Shown here: piece after piece, positions 8,992-21,185 of the stretch
Layout: each line of letters begins with the position of its first letter
Position numbering within the stretch: position 1 is the stretch's first letter
Source of the DNA: Myxococcus sp.
GTDB taxonomy: Bacteria; Myxococcota; Myxococcia; Myxococcales; Myxococcaceae
Reading direction: 5' to 3'
Length of the DNA stretch: 64,000 nucleotides
Assembly: GCA_014879945.1 (NCBI GenBank)
Contig: JACSRE010000242.1
Span: 124,001-188,000 of the forward strand
The notes under the pieces: generated by a model
Database searches by the model: none
Told to the model about the DNA's origin: nothing
What the model saw: only the letters and a program-made list of their open reading frames with translations
Program-made: the position numbers and the translations under genes

Positions 8992-10557
8992 CTAGGGCGA
9001 CGGGAGCAGGGGCAGCAGCGACTTGAGATCGGAGTCGGTGAAGTACACCCCCGCGCCCACGAAGAAGTCGCGCCCCGAGATCAGCTTGTTGGTGAGCGCG
9101 TCGCGGTTGGGCGCGTTGAGGGCGTCGTCGATGCCCACGTTCACGTAGACGTGCTCGAACGGCGTGAAGCGCACCGTGGCGCGCAGGCGCGGCAGCGTCA
9201 GGTGCTCGACCGAGAAGTTGAAGGCGTCAACCTTCACCACCAGCGCGTCTTCGAGCCACCGCGAATAGTAGAAGAACTTGATCGGCACGTTGAGATCGAG
9301 GCCGAGGCCGCCGGTGGACTCGATGATGCCCAGGCGCAGGGTGAGGAACGAGTACCGCTTGGCGAACTGGGCCGAGAACTTGAGCGTCTCTCTCGTGCGC
9401 AGCTGCTTCTGCACCGCGGGCTCGCCAGCGGCCGGGGGGTTGTTCTGAATGAGAATGGTCTCGACGCTGCCGCGCGGGTCGTCGACGGCCTCGATGAGGT
9501 AGTACTTGTCGGGCTTCGGCATCAGGCGCCCCGAGATGAAGATCTTCGCCGCGCCCTGGTTCACCAGGTAGTCGGTGCGCACGCCCAGCTCGAGCTCCAT
9601 GCCGGTCAGCCGCCCCGCGAAGTCAGAGACGTCTTCGAGGGTGTCTGACAGCTTCTGGCCGAGCCGCTCGTTCGAGACCAGGGCGCCGACCGGGCCCTTG
9701 CCCTCTTTGATGTTCTTCGAGATGTCTTCGACGTTGGCCAGGGTGCGATCGAGCTTGGCGAGCGTGTCTTTGACGCTGGCCACCCCGCCCTGCACCTCGC
9801 CCTCGTTCTCGCCCACCACCCGCTTCACCGTCGCCATCACGTCGCGCACGTCCTTCGAGATGGCGTCGATGTTGGCGACGATGTTCGAGATGTTGGCCTG
9901 CTCCTTGTTGGTCACCCGGCGCACGTCGCCCGAGATGTCTTCGATGTTGCCGAGGATCTGGTCGAGCCGGGCCGCTGAGTCGCGCACCGTCTTGTCCACC
10001 GCGGCGGCGAGGGTGGTGAGGTTGGCGACGATGGACTCGAGCGAGGCCTGGCCCTTGTCTCCGCCGAGCACGTTGCGCAGCGAGCGCGTCACCTGCTGCA
10101 CGTCCTGCGCGATCAGCTGCAGGCTGCCCATCACCGACTCCATGCCGGGCGCGTCCAGCACCGAGGTGATCTCTTCGCCGTTCTCGATGGGCGGAAAGTC
10201 TTCGGTGCCGGGCACCAGATCGATCATGTAGTCGCCCAGCAGCGACTCGGAGCGCTTGGTGAGCGAGGCGTTCTTCCGCACGCCGATCTCGCGCTTGATG
10301 CGGATCGTCACCTTGGCGCGCAGGCCGACGAGCTCGATGCTGATGATCTCTCCGACGGGAATGCCGGCGATCTGAACCCGCGACTTCTTGCCGAGGCCGC
10401 TGGCGTCCTTGAAGTAGGCGAAGACCTCGACGGCCTCGTCCTTCTCCATCCCGCCCTTCTTCGAGAAGGTGAGGAAGCCGAAAAGAATTCCGAGGGCCAC
10501 GATGACCAGCAGGCCGACGCGGAACGGGGTCAACACCTTCTTCACAGGGGCTCCCAC
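8992..10557 (-). CDS. MlaD/MCE-domain protein with long C-terminal extension
   Basis: N-terminal TM then VFAYFKDASGLGKKSRVQIAGIPVGEI MCE core; downstream of Mla-type ATPase and permease. Confidence 0.88.
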   Translation of the reverse strand: MGAPVKKVLTPFRVGLLVIVALGILFGFLTFSKKGGMEKDEAVEVFAYFKDASGLGKKSRVQIAGIPVGEIISIELVGLRAKVTIRIKREIGVRKNASLTKRSESLLGDYMIDLVPGTEDFPPIENGEEITSVLDAPGMESVMGSLQLIAQDVQQVTRSLRNVLGGDKGQASLESIVANLTTLAAAVDKTVRDSAARLDQILGNIEDISGDVRRVTNKEQANISNIVANIDAISKDVRDVMATVKRVVGENEGEVQGGVASVKDTLAKLDRTLANVEDISKNIKEGKGPVGALVSNERLGQKLSDTLEDVSDFAGRLTGMELELGVRTDYLVNQGAAKIFISGRLMPKPDKYYLIEAVDDPRGSVETILIQNNPPAAGEPAVQKQLRTRETLKFSAQFAKRYSFLTLRLGIIESTGGLGLDLNVPIKFFYYSRWLEDALVVKVDAFNFSVEHLTLPRLRATVRFTPFEHVYVNVGIDDALNAPNRDALTNKLISGRDFFVGAGVYFTDSDLKSLLPLLPSP

Positions 10558-10608
10558 CCTAGTCGAACGGACCCGGGAGTCAGCGCTTTGTTTGGCCCAG
10601 CGCCCACG

Positions 10609-11364
10609 TCAGTTCTTCCCGAACCACGTCGAGAGGAACAGCTTCACCGCCGGGTTCTCGGAGTGCCGCAGCTTCGACGGGTGCCCCTGATCGACGATGT
10701 GGCCCTGGTAGAGGAAGGCGATGTTGTCGGCCACCTTGAAGGCCGACGCGATGTCGTGGCTGATGACGACGCTGGTGACGCCGAGCTCCTTCTTGGCGTC
10801 GAGGATCATCTCATCGACGTAGTCGGTGGTGATCGGGTCGAGGCCGGTCGTCGGCTCGTCATAGAGCACGATCTTCGGCCCCAGCACGATCGCGCGCGCC
10901 AGGCCGACGCGCTTGCGCATGCCGCCCGAGAGATCGGCGGGGTACTTCTCTTCGACGTTCTTGAGCCCGACGATGGCGAGCTTCTCTTTCACCAGCGCGC
11001 GCACCTCGTCTTCGCTCAGGTCCTTGCGGTGCTCCCGCAGCGGGAACGAGACGTTCTCGAAGACCGTCATCGAGTCGAAGAGCGCCGCCGCCTGGAACAC
11101 CATGCCGAACTTGCGGCGCATGCGCTCCAGCCCCTGGGCGCCCAGCGGCACGATGTCTTCGCCGTCGACGATCACCCGGCCCTTGTCGGGCTTGAGCAGG
11201 CCGATCATGTGCTTCATCAGCACCGTCTTGCCGCTGCCCGAGCCGCCGAGAATGACCAGCGTGCTCCCCGCCGGCACATCGAGGGTGATGCCCGACAGGA
11301 CCTCGTGCGAGCCGAACGACTTGTAGAGGTCGATGATCTGGATGATCGGCGCGGCGGTCGACAT
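10609..11364 (-). CDS. Mla-type ABC transporter ATP-binding protein
   Basis: Walker A GGSGSGKT, signature LSGGMRKR, Walker B IVLYDEPTTGLD; start at ATG 11364 (ORF track over-extends). Confidence 0.92.
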   Translation of the reverse strand: MSTAAPIIQIIDLYKSFGSHEVLSGITLDVPAGSTLVILGGSGSGKTVLMKHMIGLLKPDKGRVIVDGEDIVPLGAQGLERMRRKFGMVFQAAALFDSMTVFENVSFPLREHRKDLSEDEVRALVKEKLAIVGLKNVEEKYPADLSGGMRKRVGLARAIVLGPKIVLYDEPTTGLDPITTDYVDEMILDAKKELGVTSVVISHDIASAFKVADNIAFLYQGHIVDQGHPSKLRHSENPAVKLFLSTWFGKN

Positions 11365-11378
11365 CGGTGGACTCAGAG

Positions 11379-12200
11379 CTAGTGGAGGATGACGCCGACG
11401 AAGTAGTCGAGCACGAAGATGCCGAGCGCCGACAGCACCATGGCCTCGGTGGTGGCCTGGCCGACGCCCTTGGCGCCGCCGCTGGCGTTGTAGCCCTTGA
11501 AGCACGAGACGAGCATCACGTAGAGCCCGAACACCGCGCCCTTGATGATGCCCTCGGCGATGTCTTCGGGGTCGAGCCACTGCTGGGTGCGCGAGATGAA
11601 GGTGCCCGCCGTCACGCCCTTCACCGCGACCGAGACGAAGTAGCCGCCGCCGACGCCCATCAGATCGAACACCATCACCAGCAGCGGCACCATGATGAGG
11701 CCGGCCAGCACCCGGGGCACCAGCAGGTACTGCACCGGGTTGACCGCCATCGTCTCGAGCGCGTCGACCTGCTCGGTCACCCGCATGGTGCCCAGCTCGG
11801 TGCACATGGCGCTGCCCGCCCGCATCGTCACCATCAGCGCGCTGAAGACCGGCGCCAGCTCACGGGTGATCGTCAGCGTCACCGTGGGCCCGACGAGGCT
11901 CTTGGCGTTGAACATCTCGAAGGCGCGCGCGCTCTGGTGCGCGAACACCATGCCCGAGAAGATGCCCGTCAGCGCGACGATCAGCACCGACCCCACGCCG
12001 ACGAAGTCGAGCTGGGCCAACAGGTTGCCGACCCGGAACGGCGGGCGCACGGCCCACCGCACGACCTCGGCCAGCAGCGTGGCGAGCCCTCCGATGTCTT
12101 CCACCGTCTTGGTCAGGGTGCCGCCCAGCGCCTCGACGGCCTGAACGAACGGGTTCGGTCGCTTGGGAGGAGGCTGAACCTGGGTGGTTTCCGTCGACAT
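11379..12200 (-). CDS. MlaE-family ABC transporter permease
   Basis: Typical MlaE sequence (ELGTMRVTEQVDALETMAVNPVQYLLVPRVLAGLIMVPLL). Confidence 0.92.
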   Translation of the reverse strand: MSTETTQVQPPPKRPNPFVQAVEALGGTLTKTVEDIGGLATLLAEVVRWAVRPPFRVGNLLAQLDFVGVGSVLIVALTGIFSGMVFAHQSARAFEMFNAKSLVGPTVTLTITRELAPVFSALMVTMRAGSAMCTELGTMRVTEQVDALETMAVNPVQYLLVPRVLAGLIMVPLLVMVFDLMGVGGGYFVSVAVKGVTAGTFISRTQQWLDPEDIAEGIIKGAVFGLYVMLVSCFKGYNASGGAKGVGQATTEAMVLSALGIFVLDYFVGVILH

Positions 12201-12301
12201 GAGGCGCGCGCACCATAGCCCGCCGCGCCGCTCGCCATCGGCAGATTCCGGTCGGTCAGGGGCCCTTGCGGGAGCCCGCGACCGTGGTACTTGCGCGCCC
12301 C

Positions 12302-12874
12302 ATGATTCTGCCGAACTCCATTCGTGTGGGAGGCGAAGTCGACGCCCACTGCAACAAGTGCGACATGAACCTGGCGCACACGATCCTCGCGATGGTGGGC
12401 ACGGCCATCAAGCGCGTGCAGTGCAACACCTGCAACTCGCAGCACATGTTTCGCGGGCAGCAGCCCCTGGCGGCCACCTCGTTGGCGGCCCCGCGAAAGG
12501 CGGCCTCGACCCCGCGCGCCGCCGCCTCCAGGGCCCCTCGCGCGCCGCGCTCCGAGGTGGTGGTCATCAGCTTCGACGAGCAGCTCAAGGGCAAGGATCT
12601 GACCCGCGCCCGGAAGTACTCGATCAAAGAGACCTTCAAGGTCGACGACGTGATCGACCACCCGACCTTCGGCTTCGGCATCGTCAGCGCCGTGCGCGTC
12701 GACAAGATCGACATCACCTTCAAGTCCGACGTGAAGACGCTCGCACACGGCAAGGGCGGCGGCGAGCAGAAGCCGGCCTTCACCCACCCCCAGGCGCCCG
12801 CTGGCGCCCTGGCCGACAAGCCGCCCGCCGAAGAGGCCCCTGCCACCACGCCCGAGCCGGCGCCCGAGGGCTGA
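12302..12874 (+). CDS. Uncharacterised zinc-ribbon protein with CarD/Tudor-like 'HPTFGFGIV' segment
   Basis: CNKC...CNTC pairs; VDDVIDHPTFGFGIVSAVRVDKIDITF resembles small beta-barrel domains of CarD/UvrD-tail type; ATG 12302. Confidence 0.65.
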   Translation: MILPNSIRVGGEVDAHCNKCDMNLAHTILAMVGTAIKRVQCNTCNSQHMFRGQQPLAATSLAAPRKAASTPRAAASRAPRAPRSEVVVISFDEQLKGKDLTRARKYSIKETFKVDDVIDHPTFGFGIVSAVRVDKIDITFKSDVKTLAHGKGGGEQKPAFTHPQAPAGALADKPPAEEAPATTPEPAPEG

Positions 12875-12880
12875 GCCCGC

Positions 12881-13582
12881 TCAGGGGGCCGCGGGGCGCA
12901 GCGCTCTGAGCCGCGCGAGGGTCGCCAGCAGATCGGCCGCGAGCGGCGCCTCGGCTCGAAACCCCATCGCCTCGATCTCGACCGACGCCGCGTGGAGCGG
13001 CGTTCGGCCCAGCACCACCGCGTCGCCCTGCCCTCCGAGATCCTTCTCGAGCAGCGGCTGCCGGCGCCCGTACTGGTGATCGACCAGCAGCGGGTGCCCC
13101 TTCGCCATCAGGTGCACGCGGAGCTGGTGTTGCCGCCCGGTGAGGGGCTCGCACTCCACGAGGCTGGCCTTCACGAACGTCTCGACCGGCCGAACCAGGG
13201 TGCGGCTCTCTTTGCCCATCAACCCCGCGGGGGCGACCTTCATCTTGCGCTGGCGGCCTTCGATGAGCGGCAGCTTGATGTCGAGCGGCCCGCGCACCAC
13301 GCCCTGCACCAACGCGAGGTAGCGCTTCTTCACCTGCCCGTGCTCGAAGGCCATCGACGCCCTCCGCGTCGACTCGAGGTCGAGGGCGAAGATGATCGCG
13401 CCCGAGGTGTCGCGATCGAGGCGGTGCACCACGAAGACGGGGCGCGCGAGCTGCGCGGCCAGGGCGTCACGCAGGCACTCACCCTCGTCCGGCCCCGAGG
13501 TGCCCGGGATCACCAGCATGCCGGGCGGCTTGGCGACGGCAATGAGGCCCGTCGCGCCCACCGGCGTGAGGACGTGCAGCAC
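12881..13582 (-). CDS. RluA-family RNA pseudouridine synthase
   Basis: VVHRLDRDTSGAIIFA catalytic motif; VECEPLTGRQHQLRVHL; GTG start 13582. Confidence 0.9.
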   Translation of the reverse strand: MLHVLTPVGATGLIAVAKPPGMLVIPGTSGPDEGECLRDALAAQLARPVFVVHRLDRDTSGAIIFALDLESTRRASMAFEHGQVKKRYLALVQGVVRGPLDIKLPLIEGRQRKMKVAPAGLMGKESRTLVRPVETFVKASLVECEPLTGRQHQLRVHLMAKGHPLLVDHQYGRRQPLLEKDLGGQGDAVVLGRTPLHAASVEIEAMGFRAEAPLAADLLATLARLRALRPAAP

Positions 13583-13584
13583 GG

Positions 13585-14925
13585 CTACCCGAGCTCGTCG
13601 GGCTTCACCACCGACACGCGGCCGTACTTCGCCACCTTCGGCGTCAGCTGCTGCGCGTTGCCGACCAGCACGATCACCCGCTCCTTGTCGAAGAGGTGGC
13701 TGGCCGCGGCGCGCGCGGCCTCCTTCGCGGTGACGGCGTTGATGCGATCGCGATACCGCGTGATCCAGTCGTCGGGCAGCCCGTAGTGCTGCACGTCGGC
13801 GATCGAGCCCGCGAGCGCCTCGTTGGTCTCGAGCCGCGCCGGGTAGAGCCCCGAGATGTACCGCTTCATGGTGTTGGCCTCGAGGCTGGTCGGGCCCTTC
13901 GCCCGCATCTTCTTCACCTCGGCGAGCGCGACGTCGATGAGGGTGTTGATGTTCTCGGTCTTGGTGAACGAGCCGACCATGAAGGTGCCCGCGTTGCTCA
14001 TCATGTCGAAGGAGCTGCTGGCGCCGTACGACAGGCCGCGCTTGACGCGGATCTCGCGAATCAGGCGAGAGGTGAAGCCGCCGCCCAGCACGGCGTTCAT
14101 CACCGTCAGCGGGAAGTGATCGGTGTGACCGCGCTTGACGCCCGCGGCGCCGATGCGCATCTGCACCTGCGTCTGCTCGGGCTTGTCGACGATGATCACC
14201 TCGCCCATGCGCTCGGGGCCGGCCCAGTCGGGCACCCGCGGGGCCAGCTGGGGCCCGCCGGTCCACTGGCCGAAGATGCGGTCGGCGACGGTGGTGATGC
14301 GATCGACGTTGATGTCACCGACGACGTACAGGTGCGCCAGCACGGGCCCGAGGCGGGTGCGGTGGAAGTTGACGAGATCGGCGCGCGAGAGCGCCTCGAC
14401 CGACGACTTCTGCCCCAGCGTCTCGTGCCCGTACGGGTGATCGCCCCACATCGCCCGCGCCCAGGCCCGCTCGGCCAGCGCGCCGGGGTCGTCGAGCTCG
14501 TTCTGGAGCTGCGCCAGGGTGCGCCGCCGGGCGAGCTCGAGCTCGGACTCGGGGAAGTCGGGCTCGAGCAGCAAGACGCCCATCAGCTCGAGCATCGGCT
14601 CGAGGTGCTTCGACGGGCAGCTCAGCGAGAGCACCACGTTCTCTTCGTTCGCGTAGCCGCCCAGGGCCGCGCCGACGAAGTCGATGGCCTCGCTCAGCTC
14701 ATCGGCCGTTCGCCCTCCCGCGCCTCGGCGCAGCAGCCGCGCCGCGAAGTTGGCGATGCCCGCGCGCCCGATGGGGTCCCACACGCTGCCGCCGCGCATC
14801 ACCAGGCGCACGGCCACCAGGGGCAGCGGGCCGCGTGGCACCAGGTGGAGCTGGAGGCCGTTGCGCAGCTTGCGCTTCTCGTGGGGCGGCAGCTGGAGCG
14901 GGCGGAGCTCGAGGGCGGCGCTCAT
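13585..14925 (-). CDS. M16-family peptidase-like protein lacking the HxxEH motif (non-catalytic subunit type)
   Basis: M16 fold sequence, but the catalytic position reads IANFAARLLRRGAGGRTADELSEAID; R/Y motif region GGGFTSRLIREIRVKRGLSYG. Confidence 0.88.
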   Translation of the reverse strand: MSAALELRPLQLPPHEKRKLRNGLQLHLVPRGPLPLVAVRLVMRGGSVWDPIGRAGIANFAARLLRRGAGGRTADELSEAIDFVGAALGGYANEENVVLSLSCPSKHLEPMLELMGVLLLEPDFPESELELARRRTLAQLQNELDDPGALAERAWARAMWGDHPYGHETLGQKSSVEALSRADLVNFHRTRLGPVLAHLYVVGDINVDRITTVADRIFGQWTGGPQLAPRVPDWAGPERMGEVIIVDKPEQTQVQMRIGAAGVKRGHTDHFPLTVMNAVLGGGFTSRLIREIRVKRGLSYGASSSFDMMSNAGTFMVGSFTKTENINTLIDVALAEVKKMRAKGPTSLEANTMKRYISGLYPARLETNEALAGSIADVQHYGLPDDWITRYRDRINAVTAKEAARAAASHLFDKERVIVLVGNAQQLTPKVAKYGRVSVVKPDELG

Positions 14926-16238
14926 GCCTCCACCCCATTGGTGGGGATGAGGGTGACGACGTTGCGGCGCTCGGCGCCCAGGTACTTCGCCACCACCCGC
15001 TTCACGTCGTCGGAGTTGATCCGCTCGTACGCGTTGGGCAGGGCCAGGCCCCGTCGCCAGTCGCCCAGCATCAGCTCATAGGTGCCCAGGGCGTGGGCGC
15101 GGCCGCTGTTGGTCGCCAGCTCACGCATCAGGGTGCCCGCGAGGTTGTTCTTGGCCTTCTCGAGCTCGCGCGCGTCGAGGCCGTCCTTCGCCAGCTTCTC
15201 GAGCTCGGCGTAGAGGGCCGCCTCGGCCTTCGCCGGGTCGCCTCCGGCTTTGAGCTCGAGCCCCACGGTGAAGGTCCCCGGGTCGAAGCGCCAGGTCCAG
15301 TCGACGCTCACGCCGACGGCCAGCTCCAGCTCGAACACCAGCTTCCGGTTCAGCCGGCTCGATTGCCCCACCGACAGCGCGTACTGCACCACGTCGAGGA
15401 CGAAGGTGTCGGGGTCGTCGCCCTTCGGCCCTCGCCAGGCGATCATCAGCGAGTGCGCCTGCGCCGGGTAGTGCACGTTGGCGCGGCGCTCACCCTTCTG
15501 CTCCGGCTCGGCGTCGAGCACCCCCGGCACCGGGGGGCCCGCCTTGATGTTGCCGTAGGCCTTCTTGATCATCGCCAGCGCCTGCTTCGGGTCGAAGTCT
15601 CCGGCCACGTAGATCGTCGCGTTGTTGGGCGCGTAGTAGGTGCGGAAGTAGTCGAGGCAGTCTTCGCGGCTGATGTTCTCGATGTCGCCCATCCACCCGA
15701 TCACCGGCCAGCGGTAGGGGTGGGCCTTGTAGACGAGCGCGCCGAGCTCCTCGTCCATCATGCCGGCGATCTCGTTGTCCACGCGCAGGCGCCGCTCCTC
15801 CATGACGACCTGGCGCTCGCTGGCCAGCATCTTCGGCGTCACCGCGAGGGAGCGCATGCGATCGCTCTCGAGATCGATCACCGTCTCGAGGGCCTCGGCC
15901 ATGAAGTCCTCGTAATAGACGGTCAGATCGTTCGAGGTGTACGCGTTGGAGCTGCCGCCGTTCGACTCGAGCACCTTGTCGAACATGCCGGGGCCGTACT
16001 TCTTCGCGCCGTTGAACATCATGTGCTCGAAGAGGTGGCTGATGCCGGTGATGCCCGGGCGCTCGTTGCGCGCGCCCACCTTGAAGAACGTGTAGTAGCT
16101 GCAGGTGGGCACGCCGGCGTTCGGGAGCAGCCGCACCCGCAGCCCGTTGGGCAACTTCGCTTCGATCACCGAGTCTGCGAGCGCGCCGAGCGCGGGTGGC
16201 AACTTGACGGGAGTGGAGCGGGCGCTGGCCTTCGGCAT
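14922..16238 (-). CDS. M16-family zinc metallopeptidase (catalytic)
   Basis: HLFEHMMFNGAKKYG zinc motif (HxxEH) plus downstream ERQVVMEERR; ATG 16238. Confidence 0.92.
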   Translation of the reverse strand: MPKASARSTPVKLPPALGALADSVIEAKLPNGLRVRLLPNAGVPTCSYYTFFKVGARNERPGITGISHLFEHMMFNGAKKYGPGMFDKVLESNGGSSNAYTSNDLTVYYEDFMAEALETVIDLESDRMRSLAVTPKMLASERQVVMEERRLRVDNEIAGMMDEELGALVYKAHPYRWPVIGWMGDIENISREDCLDYFRTYYAPNNATIYVAGDFDPKQALAMIKKAYGNIKAGPPVPGVLDAEPEQKGERRANVHYPAQAHSLMIAWRGPKGDDPDTFVLDVVQYALSVGQSSRLNRKLVFELELAVGVSVDWTWRFDPGTFTVGLELKAGGDPAKAEAALYAELEKLAKDGLDARELEKAKNNLAGTLMRELATNSGRAHALGTYELMLGDWRRGLALPNAYERINSDDVKRVVAKYLGAERRNVVTLIPTNGVEA

Positions 16239-17296
16239 CAGGGGGTCCTCGGGGGTTCGTGCAGGGTGAAGAAGTCGAGCACAGGGTGAAACACCTCGGC
16301 GCCGGCGCGTTCGCCGATGACGAGGTCCATGTGACCGTACTCGCCGAGGGTGCCGTTCGCCCGGGTAATGAGCAGCCACTGCTTCGGCCCACCCAGCGCG
16401 CGGAAACCATCCTTGACGGCGGGCGTCGGCGCGACCCGGTCGAGCTTGGCCGCCACCACGAGCACCGGGGTGCGGTTGCGGGCCAGATCGGCCCGGAAGT
16501 CGATGGCGCCGTCGGCCGAGGTGAAGCGGCTGGTCTCGACCAGGCTCAGCAGCTGCTTCGCGGTGCCACCCGCGGTGTCGGCGGTGCCGTAGAGCACCAG
16601 GCGCTGCCAGGTCTCGGGCGAGGTGGACTCGGGGTTGTAGAAGAAGCGCTGAAACAGGCCGTCGGCGAAGAACGTCTGGAAGGGCGCCGAGACGGCGGCG
16701 CCGAGCTGTGACGGGAAGACGACGTCGTCGGACACGAGCTTCGGGCCCAGCGTCTTGAGCAGGCGCTCGAGCCCGGTGCCCCAGTCGAGGCGGGTCGGCG
16801 CGCCCAGGGTGGCGACGGCGTGCAGGCCCTGCCCGCCCTGCGAGAGGTAGGCGTAGACGATCATGCCGCCCATGGAGTGGCCCGCGTAGTCGATGGCGTC
16901 GGCCCCGCTGATCTTCCGCACGTGCTCGATGGCCGTGGGCAGATCGTGCTGCCAGTACTGATCGAAGCGAATGGGGAGCGGGCGCCCCTTCGCCGGGTCA
17001 GCCCGATCGGAGTCACCGGTGCCGCGCACCGACATCGTCCACGCCTCGCGGCCGTGCGCCGCGAACCAGCGCGCCATGGAGTGGCCCTCGTCGAGGTCCA
17101 TGTTGCGCTCGTTGGCCGAGATGCCGTGGCACAGGAGCACCGGGCGGCCGGTCGCCTCGCCCACGGCGCGATAGCGAACGAGCGAGATCTCCCAGCCGTC
17201 GGCGGTCTTCGGGCGGTGCCGCTCGGCCTCGGGAGGCAGCGGCACCACGCGCAGGTTCGCGCAGCCGCAGATCAGGAGCAGCCACAGGGCGCGCAT
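16238..17296 (-). CDS. Alpha/beta hydrolase, predicted lipoprotein (catalytic)
   Basis: MRALWLLLICGC lipobox; nucleophile elbow AGHSMGG; oxyanion HGIS; 4-bp overlap with both neighbours. Confidence 0.85.
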   Translation of the reverse strand: MRALWLLLICGCANLRVVPLPPEAERHRPKTADGWEISLVRYRAVGEATGRPVLLCHGISANERNMDLDEGHSMARWFAAHGREAWTMSVRGTGDSDRADPAKGRPLPIRFDQYWQHDLPTAIEHVRKISGADAIDYAGHSMGGMIVYAYLSQGGQGLHAVATLGAPTRLDWGTGLERLLKTLGPKLVSDDVVFPSQLGAAVSAPFQTFFADGLFQRFFYNPESTSPETWQRLVLYGTADTAGGTAKQLLSLVETSRFTSADGAIDFRADLARNRTPVLVVAAKLDRVAPTPAVKDGFRALGGPKQWLLITRANGTLGEYGHMDLVIGERAGAEVFHPVLDFFTLHEPPRTP

Positions 17297-18216
17297 CAGG
17301 GGGCCTCCGCGGCGAAGAAGTCGGCGATCAGCGGGAAGACCACCGCCGGCGCGTGGGTGCCCAGCAGCATCGACAGGTGGCTGAAGTCCTCCTTCGTCTC
17401 GACGCGGCTGAAGGTGCGCAGGCGCACGGCGCCGTTGGAGCGCTCCCGCCACACCGCGCACAGCTCGGGTGACGCGAAGCCGTCGGCCAGCCCGAGCAGG
17501 AGCAACGTCGGCTTCGACCACGCCGTCAGCCCGCTCACGACCGAGCCGCTCTCGAGGGGCAGATCGCCCTGCCTCATCCACGCGAGCAGCTGCGCCGCGA
17601 CCGGCCGCGAGAGATCGCGGGTGCCCGTCGAGAGGAAGGCCCGGTCGGTGCCCGCCGGGAAGAGCGACCACAGGGCGAACAGCTGCTGGAAGATCTCCGC
17701 GCCCGCGGGGCTGCTGGCGAGCGTCGAGAAGCGGCCGCCGTCTTCCAGGAAGGCCTCGGCGAGGGCGCTCGGAGGCTCGGCCAGGAGCGGGGTGTTGAGC
17801 GCGACCACCCGGCGCACCCGCGCGTCGCCGCGGTTCGAGGCGAGCAGCACCGAGCCCGCCCAGCCCTGCACCACCAGATCGACCAGGGGGAGCTTCAGCG
17901 CGTCGAGCACGATGGGCAGATCGCCGGCGAGCCGCTCGAGCGAGAGCCCGGGGCCCGCCTTCCCCTGCCCGCGCAGCTCGGCGACGTAGACGGTGAACCC
18001 GCGCTCGACCAGCCAGCGCGCGAGCCCACGCCCCTCGAAGTCCCAGGCCGCGCGCGAGAAGCCGAGCTCGGGCACGAGGAGCACCGGCGGCTGCGCCGAG
18101 GTGACGCCCGGCCGTTGGTACCGATAGACGGCCAGCGCCACGCCATCGGGCGTCATCACCCGGCGATGCGAGACCTGCGGCGAGGCGGTGAGGAGCAGCG
18201 CGAGGACGGCGATCAC
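17296..18216 (-). CDS. Alpha/beta hydrolase-like protein with apparently missing nucleophile
   Basis: Alpha/beta hydrolase fold sequence, but elbow reads VVQGWAGSVLLA (Ser replaced by Ala in GxSxG); GTG start 18216. Confidence 0.75.
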   Translation of the reverse strand: MIAVLALLLTASPQVSHRRVMTPDGVALAVYRYQRPGVTSAQPPVLLVPELGFSRAAWDFEGRGLARWLVERGFTVYVAELRGQGKAGPGLSLERLAGDLPIVLDALKLPLVDLVVQGWAGSVLLASNRGDARVRRVVALNTPLLAEPPSALAEAFLEDGGRFSTLASSPAGAEIFQQLFALWSLFPAGTDRAFLSTGTRDLSRPVAAQLLAWMRQGDLPLESGSVVSGLTAWSKPTLLLLGLADGFASPELCAVWRERSNGAVRLRTFSRVETKEDFSHLSMLLGTHAPAVVFPLIADFFAAEAP

Positions 18217-18872
18217 AGCTCGACGAGCCCCGCCTTCAGCGCCAGCACCACCGCGTCGACGTGCGAGTTGACGCCGAGCTTGGTGTAGATGTGGCCGAGG
18301 TGCGTGCGCACGGTGCGGCGCTCGAGCTCCATCACGCGGCCCACCTCGGCGTTCGACAGCCCCTTGGCGACGTATCGCAGCACGTCGAGCTCCAGCGGGG
18401 TCAGGCCCCACGGGTTCTGCGGCTGCGCCGGCTTCGCCTGCACCGACTGAAAGTAGTTCCAGAAGCGCCTGGCGATGCGGGCCTCGAGCACCGTCCCGCC
18501 GGCCATCACGTCGTGAATGCCCGAGCGGATCTTCTCGGGCCCCACGCGCTTGACGAGGTAGCCCGAGGCGCCCGCCTGCATCGCCTCGTAGACCTTCTGC
18601 TCGTCGTCGAACGAGGTGAGGATCAGCACCTCGATCTTCGGCGCCCGGCGCTTGAGCCGGCGCGTCACCTCGATGCCGTCGATGCCGGGGAGCTCGAGAT
18701 CGAGCAGCGCGAGCTGAGGCAGGAGCTTCACCATCTCGTCGACGCCGCTCTCGCCATCACGCGCCGAGCCCACCACCTCGAGCTCGGGGAACGCCGCCAG
18801 GGCCTTGCGCAGGTTGGCCAAGAGCGCAGCCTGATCCTCCACCACGTAGATGCGGGTCGTGTCGGTCGTCAT
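18213..18872 (-). CDS. NarL/FixJ-type response regulator
   Basis: REC domain (VVEDQAAL, LLDLELPGIDGIEV, LVKRVGPEKI) and LuxR-type HTH (LTPLELDVLRYVAKGLSNAEVGRVMELERRTVRTHLGHIYTKLGV). Confidence 0.92.
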   Translation of the reverse strand: MTTDTTRIYVVEDQAALLANLRKALAAFPELEVVGSARDGESGVDEMVKLLPQLALLDLELPGIDGIEVTRRLKRRAPKIEVLILTSFDDEQKVYEAMQAGASGYLVKRVGPEKIRSGIHDVMAGGTVLEARIARRFWNYFQSVQAKPAQPQNPWGLTPLELDVLRYVAKGLSNAEVGRVMELERRTVRTHLGHIYTKLGVNSHVDAVVLALKAGLVEL

Positions 18873-20857
18873 CGGAAGTTCGGGTCGACTTTGGCCTGCT
18901 TGCCAGCTTCGACCCGCAGCGTCGACTTCCATTCCTGCTTCGTCTTTCCGTCGACGACGCGCAGCGCGTGCCGGCCGGGCGTCACCGGCACCTTGTTGAT
19001 CACGCCGCACACCCGCTCGCCGTCGAGCTCCACACGCGCGGCGCGGGTCAGCACGACGGTGAGGTACCCGTGCGGCCCGTTCGGCGGCGGCGCGTAGCAG
19101 GCCCCCTTCGGCTGCGGCGGGGGCGCCACCTTCGAGGGGCGCGGCAGCTCGACGGGCTTCGGAGGGACGGGGGTGACGGTCGGCGGCCTCAGGGGCGCCG
19201 TCTTCGGAGGCTTGTCGAAGTCGGGCAGCTTGACGTTCGAGGGCAGCGCCAGCGGCGGCCCCGGCGGGCCTGCGCCGTTTGGGTTGCGCAGCTTCACCAG
19301 GGCGACCTCGATGGGCGCCGGCATCCACGAGATCAGATCGCCGACCGCGTCCTGGGTGCGGAAGAGCCAGAGGCCGATGAACACCATGGTGAACAGGGTG
19401 AGCACGAAGGCCCCCAGGCGCACGGCGGTGACCCCGGCCCGGCGACGATCTTCGCGCTCCTTCTGCCAGTCGGGCGGCACGTAGTCGCCCTCCCGCTTGA
19501 ACGGCACCGCGAAGGTGAGGAGGGTCTTCAGCTTCTGGCGCTCGCTGTTCTCTCTCGGCTTCGGGCCGACCGGCGTCAGCTTCTGCGCCGACGCGCCGGC
19601 CTTCACCGCAGCGGGCGCGGGCGCCGGCTCCTTCGGGGCGAAGTCTTCGATCGCCCGCACGCGCCGCGAGACCTCGACCTCGGCGGCGTCGGCCCTGGCG
19701 ACCTCGGGCATCGCGCCGGCGGGCGCCTCCCAGGTGAGGGCCGCGGACGCGACGATCGGCGCGGTCTGCGCCGGCAGCTCCTGGGTTTCGCTGCCGGAGC
19801 TCGTCTCGACGTCATCACCCGAGAACACCGGCAGCCCGTCAGAGGTCGAGGTGCGATCGTCGATGGCTCCGCCCGAGAAGGGCGCGCGCGCGTCGGGCGC
19901 CTCCGCGAGCTCGGCGTCGGCCACCAGATCGCTGACGCCGGCGATGTCGTCGAGCTCGAAGGGCTGCTGAAACGGCACCGGCCCCAGCGAGTTGGTGACG
20001 ACGTCTCTGGGGAACAGCTCGTCGACGAACTTCCGCACGTCGTCTCGGCCCGGCACCCCGCCCTGCGCCGAGAGGAACTCGCGGAGCCCGGCGGCCAGCT
20101 CCGACGCCGAGCGCTGGCGCCGGCCAGCGGTCTGCTCCAGCGCGCGCATGATGATCGGGTCGATGCGCGAGTGGAGCCGGCGCACCAGGCGGCTGGGCGG
20201 CGGCAGCTTCTCGCCCTGGCGCGTCGAGAGCGCGTCCTTGCCGACCGAGGCCTCTTTCAGGGTGAGCAGCTCGTAGGCGAGGGCGCCGAGGGCGTAGACG
20301 TCGCCGGCCACCGCGCTCCCGGCTGCGCCGCGGACCTCGGGCGCGCGGTAGCTGGAGCGGCCCCGGTTGCCGAACGCCTTCTTGAGCGCCGGCGAGGCCA
20401 TCAGCGCGTCGATGGCGCCGAAGTCGGCGATGGCGGCGCGCCCGTCGCTGCCGAGCAGCACGTTGCCCGGGGTGAGCGCGCCATGCACGACCGAGGCCCG
20501 GTGCGCGGCGTCGAGGATGTCGGCGAGCTCGATGATGAACGCGATGGCCACCGCCGGCGGCAACACCACCTCGCGGGTGTTGAGGCGGGTGAGGGCCTGC
20601 CCGAGCGTGTAGCGACCGGCGTCTTCGCGCACGATGGCGAGGCGTCGCTGAAAGAGCCCGACCTGGAGCACCCGCGCGATGCCCGGCGCCGCCCCCCCCG
20701 ACAGCCGCTGCGCGTAGTCGGCGATGACCTTCGCGTACGAGAGGTCGGTCGTCTTCGGGTGGAACAGCTTGATGACGACCTGGCCGCCGTCGGTCCGCTC
20801 CGCGCGATAGAGCTCACTCAGCTCCGAGGCTTCGAGGCGACCCAGCAACCGGAACAC
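18869..20857 (-). CDS. Ser/Thr protein kinase-like protein, probable pseudokinase with TM and C-terminal PEGA-like region
   Basis: VVIK Lys, DFG and APE motifs present, but catalytic loop reads VVHGALTPGNVLL instead of HRDLKPxN. Confidence 0.85.
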   Translation of the reverse strand: MFRLLGRLEASELSELYRAERTDGGQVVIKLFHPKTTDLSYAKVIADYAQRLSGGAAPGIARVLQVGLFQRRLAIVREDAGRYTLGQALTRLNTREVVLPPAVAIAFIIELADILDAAHRASVVHGALTPGNVLLGSDGRAAIADFGAIDALMASPALKKAFGNRGRSSYRAPEVRGAAGSAVAGDVYALGALAYELLTLKEASVGKDALSTRQGEKLPPPSRLVRRLHSRIDPIIMRALEQTAGRRQRSASELAAGLREFLSAQGGVPGRDDVRKFVDELFPRDVVTNSLGPVPFQQPFELDDIAGVSDLVADAELAEAPDARAPFSGGAIDDRTSTSDGLPVFSGDDVETSSGSETQELPAQTAPIVASAALTWEAPAGAMPEVARADAAEVEVSRRVRAIEDFAPKEPAPAPAAVKAGASAQKLTPVGPKPRENSERQKLKTLLTFAVPFKREGDYVPPDWQKEREDRRRAGVTAVRLGAFVLTLFTMVFIGLWLFRTQDAVGDLISWMPAPIEVALVKLRNPNGAGPPGPPLALPSNVKLPDFDKPPKTAPLRPPTVTPVPPKPVELPRPSKVAPPPQPKGACYAPPPNGPHGYLTVVLTRAARVELDGERVCGVINKVPVTPGRHALRVVDGKTKQEWKSTLRVEAGKQAKVDPNFR

Positions 20858-20879: not shown

Positions 20880-21185
20880 TCAGCGGCGGCGCTTTGGCTT
20901 GAAGAGCTCGGCGGCGTCGAAGCGGAAGCCGCACCACACGCACTGGACGCCCTTGGGGCCCCTGGGCAACTCGAGGGTACACCCGGGGCACCGCCTCGGC
21001 GCTCGGGGCGTTCGCACCACCCGCGCCACTGGCCGGCCCACCTCGATGCGCCCGCGGCTGCGCGCCTCTGCCGCCTCGCGTCGAACCCGGGCCTCGAGGA
21101 GCTTCATGCGCAGCTCGAGATCGTCGATGCGCGCCAGCAGCCGGGCCCGTTCCTCGTCGCTCAAGGTGCTGCGCCGTGCCGCCAT
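20880..21185 (-). CDS. Small coiled-coil plus zinc-ribbon protein
   Basis: CPGC...CVWCGF motif after a charged helical N-terminus. Confidence 0.6.
   Translation of the reverse strand: MAARRSTLSDEERARLLARIDDLELRMKLLEARVRREAAEARSRGRIEVGRPVARVVRTPRAPRRCPGCTLELPRGPKGVQCVWCGFRFDAAELFKPKRRR

Follow-up and report, generated by a model that had tools for sequence, protein, structure and literature searches.

A predicted modular operon conserved in the order Myxococcales, on the minus strand of a 64,000-nt window (the whole stretch analyzed: positions 124,001–188,000 of the forward strand of contig JACSRE010000242.1, in the 7.7-Mb, 448-contig assembly GCA_014879945.1), encodes two adjacent α/β-hydrolase-fold proteins: ABH1, which has glycine at the nucleophile position in all 28 copies found, and ABH2, which is intact. 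The genes in this unit run, on the minus strand, from a zinc-ribbon open reading frame (ORF) through a pseudokinase (PK), a response regulator (RR), ABH1, ABH2, an active and an inactive M16 peptidase subunit (M16A and M16B) and a pseudouridine synthase (PSU), eight genes in all with the zinc-ribbon ORF included. The original prediction had placed seven ORFs here, from PK to PSU, and our ORF check of the window recovered all of them where it put them. Coordinates below are positions within the window.

A hydrolase fold with glycine at the nucleophile position

The AlphaFold2 (AF2) model of ABH1 has an α/β-hydrolase fold (predicted local distance difference test score, pLDDT, 94.2; predicted template modeling score, pTM, 0.92), the nearest folds in a Foldseek search of the PDB were esterases and hydrolases, and signal peptides were seen across the orthologues. 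Profile–profile alignment (hhalign) matched Ser141 of ABH2 to Gly118 of ABH1, and PDB profile alignments concurred. The genome scan was run with the ABH2 alignment, since that of ABH1 was too divergent. The ABH1 copies found comprise 27 that scored at least 166 bits, spread over 26 genomes, and a distant one in genome G074; the next best inspected proteins of the phylum scan (158 bits or less) contained GHSxG. Asp245 and His280 were invariant wherever the frame was readable, and both, together with Gly118, are among the 12 invariant columns of the 306 in the orthologue alignment, in which sequences are 26–81% identical. ABH1 keeps the fold and loses the nucleophile under purifying selection, as a pseudoenzyme does, and it has none of the residues (Ser, Cys or Asp) found at the elbow of an active serine α/β-hydrolase; it likewise lacks the HG oxyanion motif that ABH2 has. 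Its ratio of nonsynonymous to synonymous substitution rates (dN/dS) was about 0.1–0.4, indicating a maintained protein rather than a decaying gene.

A nucleophile hidden elsewhere in ABH1 was ruled out, because no Ser, Thr or Cys column was conserved at 90% in the orthologue alignment; the variable W/Y/F residue 119 was likewise rejected as the nucleophile column, since the profile alignment gives Gly118. The tree placed ABH1 in a single clade (100/98) separate from ABH2, which was nested among other paralogues, and this separate, old clade rules out a recent tandem duplication of ABH2. Most simply, the change from Ser to Gly would have arisen once, in the ancestor of the ABH1 clade, with Gly then fixed and Asp and His kept.

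In ABH2, Ser141, Asp286, His322 and the lipobox Cys12 were invariant in 22 alignment rows and GHSMGG was intact, so that the protein is predicted to be a lipoprotein hydrolase, with a Ser–Asp–His triad and a lipobox Cys. Its profile matches were gastric and lysosomal acid lipases and polyhydroxyalkanoate (PHA) synthase, covering the N-terminal half including the nucleophile elbow; the PDB profile matches to the acid/gastric lipase family reached 2e-14 and 7e-14. Over its N-terminal half ABH2 is similar in profile to acid/gastric lipase-like hydrolases and PHA synthases, but it differs in being a predicted bacterial lipoprotein and in falling below the Pfam Abhydro_lipase cut-off, so that it is at most a possible member of the acid/gastric lipase family.

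ABH1 was always immediately followed by ABH2 (26 genomes) and was never seen alone. Genomes without one of the two also lacked the orthologue of the other, and both are absent from Myxococcus-like genera. The distant copy in G074 is again part of a tandem pair, and single ABH2-like genes with intact A/GYSLGA were found elsewhere in g4 and g7 genomes. Another genome contained a second tandem pair (L142, G069:C30) in addition to the one adjoining M16A/M16B, and its ABH1-like member again had Gly. In G029 (L055/L128), ABH1 and ABH2 both look frame-broken, through either assembly error or joint decay.

Conserved order and modular composition of the locus

Divergent from a 5'-nucleotidase gene (5NT), the order zinc-ribbon ORF, PK, RR, ABH1, ABH2, M16A, M16B, PSU was found in 20 relatives, complete or as far as the contig end, barring the exceptions named below. 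These relatives include all six examined members of the genus and about ten more genera of the family, the named records being metagenome-assembled genomes (MAGs) of uncultured Myxococcaceae, Archangiaceae or Myxococcales. All seven genes from PK to PSU had dN/dS well under 1, and this, with the recurrence of the order in 20 genomes, argues that the chain is not due to chance. Gene order in related genomes, on which the original prediction had made its proposal depend, was conserved rather than scattered, in the same genus and in about ten others.

The order is not uniform, however. Other genera of the family, including Myxococcus-like ones, have the block without ABH1 and ABH2, with RR 11–67 nt from M16A (L089–L093, L095, L098). 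In genus g16, ABH2 and M16A are 0.3–5 kb apart, with unrelated genes in the interval (L044, L045, L047, L052); in one of its genomes the insertion consists of hydrogenase and diaphorase-like genes (L047:3186–8115). Elsewhere in the order, in families other than this one, RR and M16A are separated by the hydrolase pair (L099) or by a large ASH/VWA-type protein (L100, L101, L106). Most loci retained the overlap or near-overlap of PK and RR, also where different genes follow downstream. Judged from these comparisons, the chain is real and old, yet modular, with the modules being the zinc-ribbon protein, PK and RR; ABH1 and ABH2; and M16A, M16B and PSU. In two unrelated MAGs (L131, L134), an M16A/M16B pair has an ABH2-like gene on the other strand at a distance of about 4–5 kb, possibly an independent link; the record titles of L134 and L135 (Bifidobacterium breve, Euryarchaeota) fit their content poorly, and these MAGs are likely mislabeled.

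The genes of the chain are tightly coupled (Table 1). Four-base-pair overlaps had been predicted at five junctions. Those of PK/RR (ATGA, 18869–18872), RR/ABH1 (GTGA, 18213–18216) and M16A/M16B (ATGA, 14922–14925) were as described, but the ABH1/ABH2 (17296) and ABH2/M16A (16238) junctions are 1-bp TGATG overlaps. M16B and PSU are separated by a 2-nt gap (13583–13584), and no terminator-like sites were found on the coding strand within the chain. The zinc-ribbon ORF, which has a CxxC...CxxC arrangement, ends 22 nt upstream of the PK gene and is probably the true start of the unit, one gene earlier than had been proposed; a Pfam scan of this ORF gave nothing above cut-off. The HAD-IG 5'-nucleotidase gene (21228, plus strand) is head-to-head with the unit, and the interval between it and the zinc-ribbon ORF is only about 42 bp, so that the two promoters have to fit into a very short stretch or else fall within coding sequence. 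Downstream of the unit are a convergent ORF (12266–12874, plus strand) and then an Mla-type MlaE/MlaF/MCE lipid-transport cluster (8992–12200, minus strand); in most relatives this cluster keeps its synteny with the unit, that one ORF lying between them.

Table 1 Features of the locus and the evidence for their assignment
Feature	Position	Strand	Evidence
Zinc-ribbon-like ORF, 101 aa, CPGC...CVWC, probable first gene of unit	20880..21185	-	Sequence; kept upstream of PK in most syntenic loci
PK, pseudokinase	18869..20857	-	Pfam PF00069 4.6e-14; AF2 model; residue alignments
RR, NarL/FixJ-type response regulator	18213..18872	-	PF00072 3.6e-24; PF00196 6.3e-16
ABH1, predicted exported α/β-hydrolase-fold pseudoenzyme	17296..18216	-	PF00561 5.2e-6; AF2; Foldseek; orthologue signal peptides
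ABH2, intact α/β-hydrolase, predicted lipoprotein, lipase-like	16238..17296	-	Residue alignments; profile matches
M16A, zinc peptidase of M16B type, active subunit (HLFEH ... E)	14922..16238	-	PDB match 3amj_C
M16B, inactive M16 subunit without HxxEH, RGL(S/T)Y retained	13585..14925	-	PDB match 3amj_B
PSU, RluA-family pseudouridine synthase, HRLDRDTSG intact	12881..13582	-	PF00849 8.1e-28
Ala127 codon of PK, kinase catalytic Asp position (HRD to HGA)	20477..20479	-	Alignments
Gly118 codon of ABH1, nucleophile position (Ser to Gly), invariant	17863..17865	-	hhalign with ABH2; PDB profile alignments; orthologue tables
ABH1 codon for Asp245, acid residue kept in every readable frame	17482..17484	-	Orthologue alignments
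ABH1 codon for His280, catalytic-type His kept in every readable frame	17377..17379	-	Orthologue alignments

The M16 subunits and the pseudokinase–regulator genes

M16A had the HxxEH motif (HLFEH-type) and the downstream Glu (E147/E148) in all 35 orthologues, whereas in M16B, which matched both PF00675 and PF05193, HxxEH is replaced by NFAAR or similar in 34 of 34 orthologues and RGL(S/T)Y is retained. The best PDB match of each gene was the corresponding subunit of one structure: 3amj_C, "zinc peptidase active subunit" (3.7e-69), for M16A and 3amj_B, "zinc peptidase inactive subunit" (2.7e-62), for M16B. With an active motif, an adjacent motif-less subunit and subunit-matched nearest structures, the two proteins are assigned by sequence as the active and the inactive half of a zinc-peptidase heterodimer of the M16B type, in agreement with the original prediction; this is an ordinary, textbook design. 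Both such heterodimers (PMC12731061) and the part that inactive M16 subunits play in general (PMC11266112) are established. In Sphingomonas sp. A1, SPH2681 and SPH2682 (PDB 3AMJ) are likewise encoded by adjacent genes, one with HxxEH...E and one without (PMC12731061), and TTHA1264/TTHA1265 and AlbF/AlbE are further M16B heterodimeric zinc peptidases close to M16A/M16B; in contrast to these, the pair described here is embedded with a pseudokinase, a regulator and a hydrolase pair. Assignment to the YfmF/YfmH equivalogs associated with EF-P modification was rejected, as scores were below the NCBIfam cut-offs (89.9 against 250 and 79 against 285 bits). On inspection neither M16A nor M16B had an export signal, so the pair is expected in another compartment than the hydrolases and presumably acts on peptides in the cytosol. 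PSU had an intact HRxDRxTSG motif.

The AF2 model of PK comprises a Hanks-type kinase domain (residues 1–281; pLDDT about 85), a disordered linker, one transmembrane helix (about 464–500) and a small C-terminal β domain, for which a Pfam search gave no match. The Asp of HRD is Ala in 25 of 27 orthologues (HGA, or HSA in two of these) and Arg or Gly in the remainder; Lys30 (β3), Asn132 and DFG are mostly retained. The kinase domain with conserved loss of a catalytic residue marks PK as a predicted transmembrane pseudokinase, although some kinases without canonical residues are nonetheless active. This class is known in myxobacteria, with 11 of 99 kinases in M. xanthus counted as pseudokinases (PMC6791715). 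PK shares with these Hanks-type proteins a kinase domain without a required catalytic residue (PMC6791715), but differs from them in its fixed position upstream of an orphan NarL-type regulator and in the conservation of the Asp-to-Ala change across genera.

RR has an intact receiver and LuxR-type helix-turn-helix (HTH) domain, and the acidic-pocket Asp13 and phospho-acceptor Asp58 were invariant in 40 orthologues, as in NarL/FixJ response regulators. No histidine kinase gene is adjacent to it, and RR is classed here as an orphan: a DNA-binding response regulator whose receiver is normal. Control of the unit by PK and RR is suggested only by their persistent linkage. The orthologue alignments bear out the proposal that three enzyme families here have a member lacking catalytic residues (ABH1, PK and M16B); each loss is old, common to orthologues and under purifying selection.

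Possible roles of the hydrolase pair

Our best explanation of the whole, whose chances we regard as evenly balanced, is a modular operon in which ABH1 is a partner of ABH2, the M16 subunits form a cytosolic heterodimer, and PK and RR provide local control. At the cell envelope ABH1 would assist ABH2 without catalysis of its own: it would bind ABH2 or, in its pseudo-active site, the lipid/ester substrate of ABH2, and thereby set the activity, stability or localization of ABH2, much as an inactive M16 subunit serves the active one. A periplasmic cue would be read by PK via its C-terminal domain, which would pass it on through the kinase-like domain by binding, not phosphorylation, and RR would tune transcription of the unit. 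The tight stop/start overlaps would hold production of the partners at a fixed ratio, and ABH1 and ABH2 would be produced together with the M16 heterodimer. A single multi-protein system of all seven proteins, as originally proposed, was not supported in that form: a signal peptide is present in ABH1 and a lipobox in ABH2, whereas the M16 pair has no export signal, which argues against one seven-protein complex. It is further weakened by the split of the block between ABH2 and M16A in g16 and by the Myxococcus-like genera without both hydrolases.

Several observations weigh against a direct ABH1–ABH2 partnership. The same genomes contain hydrolase-like paralogues elsewhere. The partial mirror-tree correlation of ABH1 and ABH2 was 0.38, compared with 0.65 for the M16A–M16B control, and was also below that of ABH2 and PSU (0.51); given this weak signal, only moderate weight can be placed on direct partnership. 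Since ABH1 is an old separate clade and not a recent duplicate of ABH2, co-ancestry provides no argument for dimerization. Both the clade and the weak coevolution would suit an independent exported binding protein, such as a lipid/ester receptor or carrier, that merely shares an operon with ABH2. A nucleophile Gly with conserved Asp, His and pocket residues also suits ligand binding, and neuroligins show that a hydrolase fold without Ser can be purely a binding protein (PMC12931606). ABH1 resembles these pseudo-esterases in being an exported hydrolase fold without the catalytic Ser (PMC12931606), but it belongs to another subfamily, adjoins a hydrolase that is intact, and retains Asp and His, and no adhesion role is implied. 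Against an independent binder, which we consider unlikely, stand the constant presence of ABH2 beside ABH1 in 26 genomes, the joint absence of the two, and the second copy in G069 and the distant copy in G074, which are again tandem pairs.

The invariance of Asp245 and His280 despite 26–81% identity, where decay of the site should have removed both, is what would favor a neofunctionalized enzyme using the His–Asp dyad only, for general-base chemistry in which water or oxygen takes up the space that Gly leaves. The missing HG oxyanion motif and the ordinary Ser or Asp hydrolases as closest solved folds speak against such an enzyme, which we regard as very improbable. With respect to the whole locus, the genes might instead be unrelated housekeeping genes packed on one promoter in a compact, high-GC genome, with unlinked modules and no control role for PK and RR. 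The modular block, the Myxococcus-like genera without hydrolases, the g16 insertions, and the ASH/VWA-type protein or longer insert between RR and M16A in other families are consistent with such packing; however, the order 5NT–zinc-ribbon ORF–PK–RR...M16A–M16B–PSU outlasts the expectation for random packing, in the majority of the family and also in parts of the order, and we view this alternative as somewhat unlikely. Pairing of ABH1 with ABH2 in the manner of the M16 subunits, which the original prediction had put forward, is a plausible conjecture, favored indirectly by the invariable Gly of ABH1 and by the constant adjacency and shared absence of the two genes. The more specific proposal, that an envelope lipase would work as an obligate pair with a Gly-for-Ser pseudo-hydrolase, in an operon with an M16 heterodimer and under a PK/orphan-RR switch signaling without kinase phosphotransfer, is put forward tentatively and is in our estimation doubtful.

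Narrow literature searches for inactive/active lipase pairs turned up no bacterial α/β-hydrolase pair of this sort, and searches for this locus in Myxococcus gave no account of it. ABH1/ABH2, with Gly fixed in place of Ser, is a credible, apparently undescribed variant of the active/inactive pair principle; this principle is well known for M16 peptidases, and the hydrolases would extend it to the α/β-hydrolases. The ABH1 clade, with Gly throughout and Asp and His kept, offers a clean natural test of what a pseudo-hydrolase is for, with the genera lacking the pair as a comparison. In addition, the pseudokinase here has a constant neighbor, the orphan RR, which makes the function of PK directly testable.

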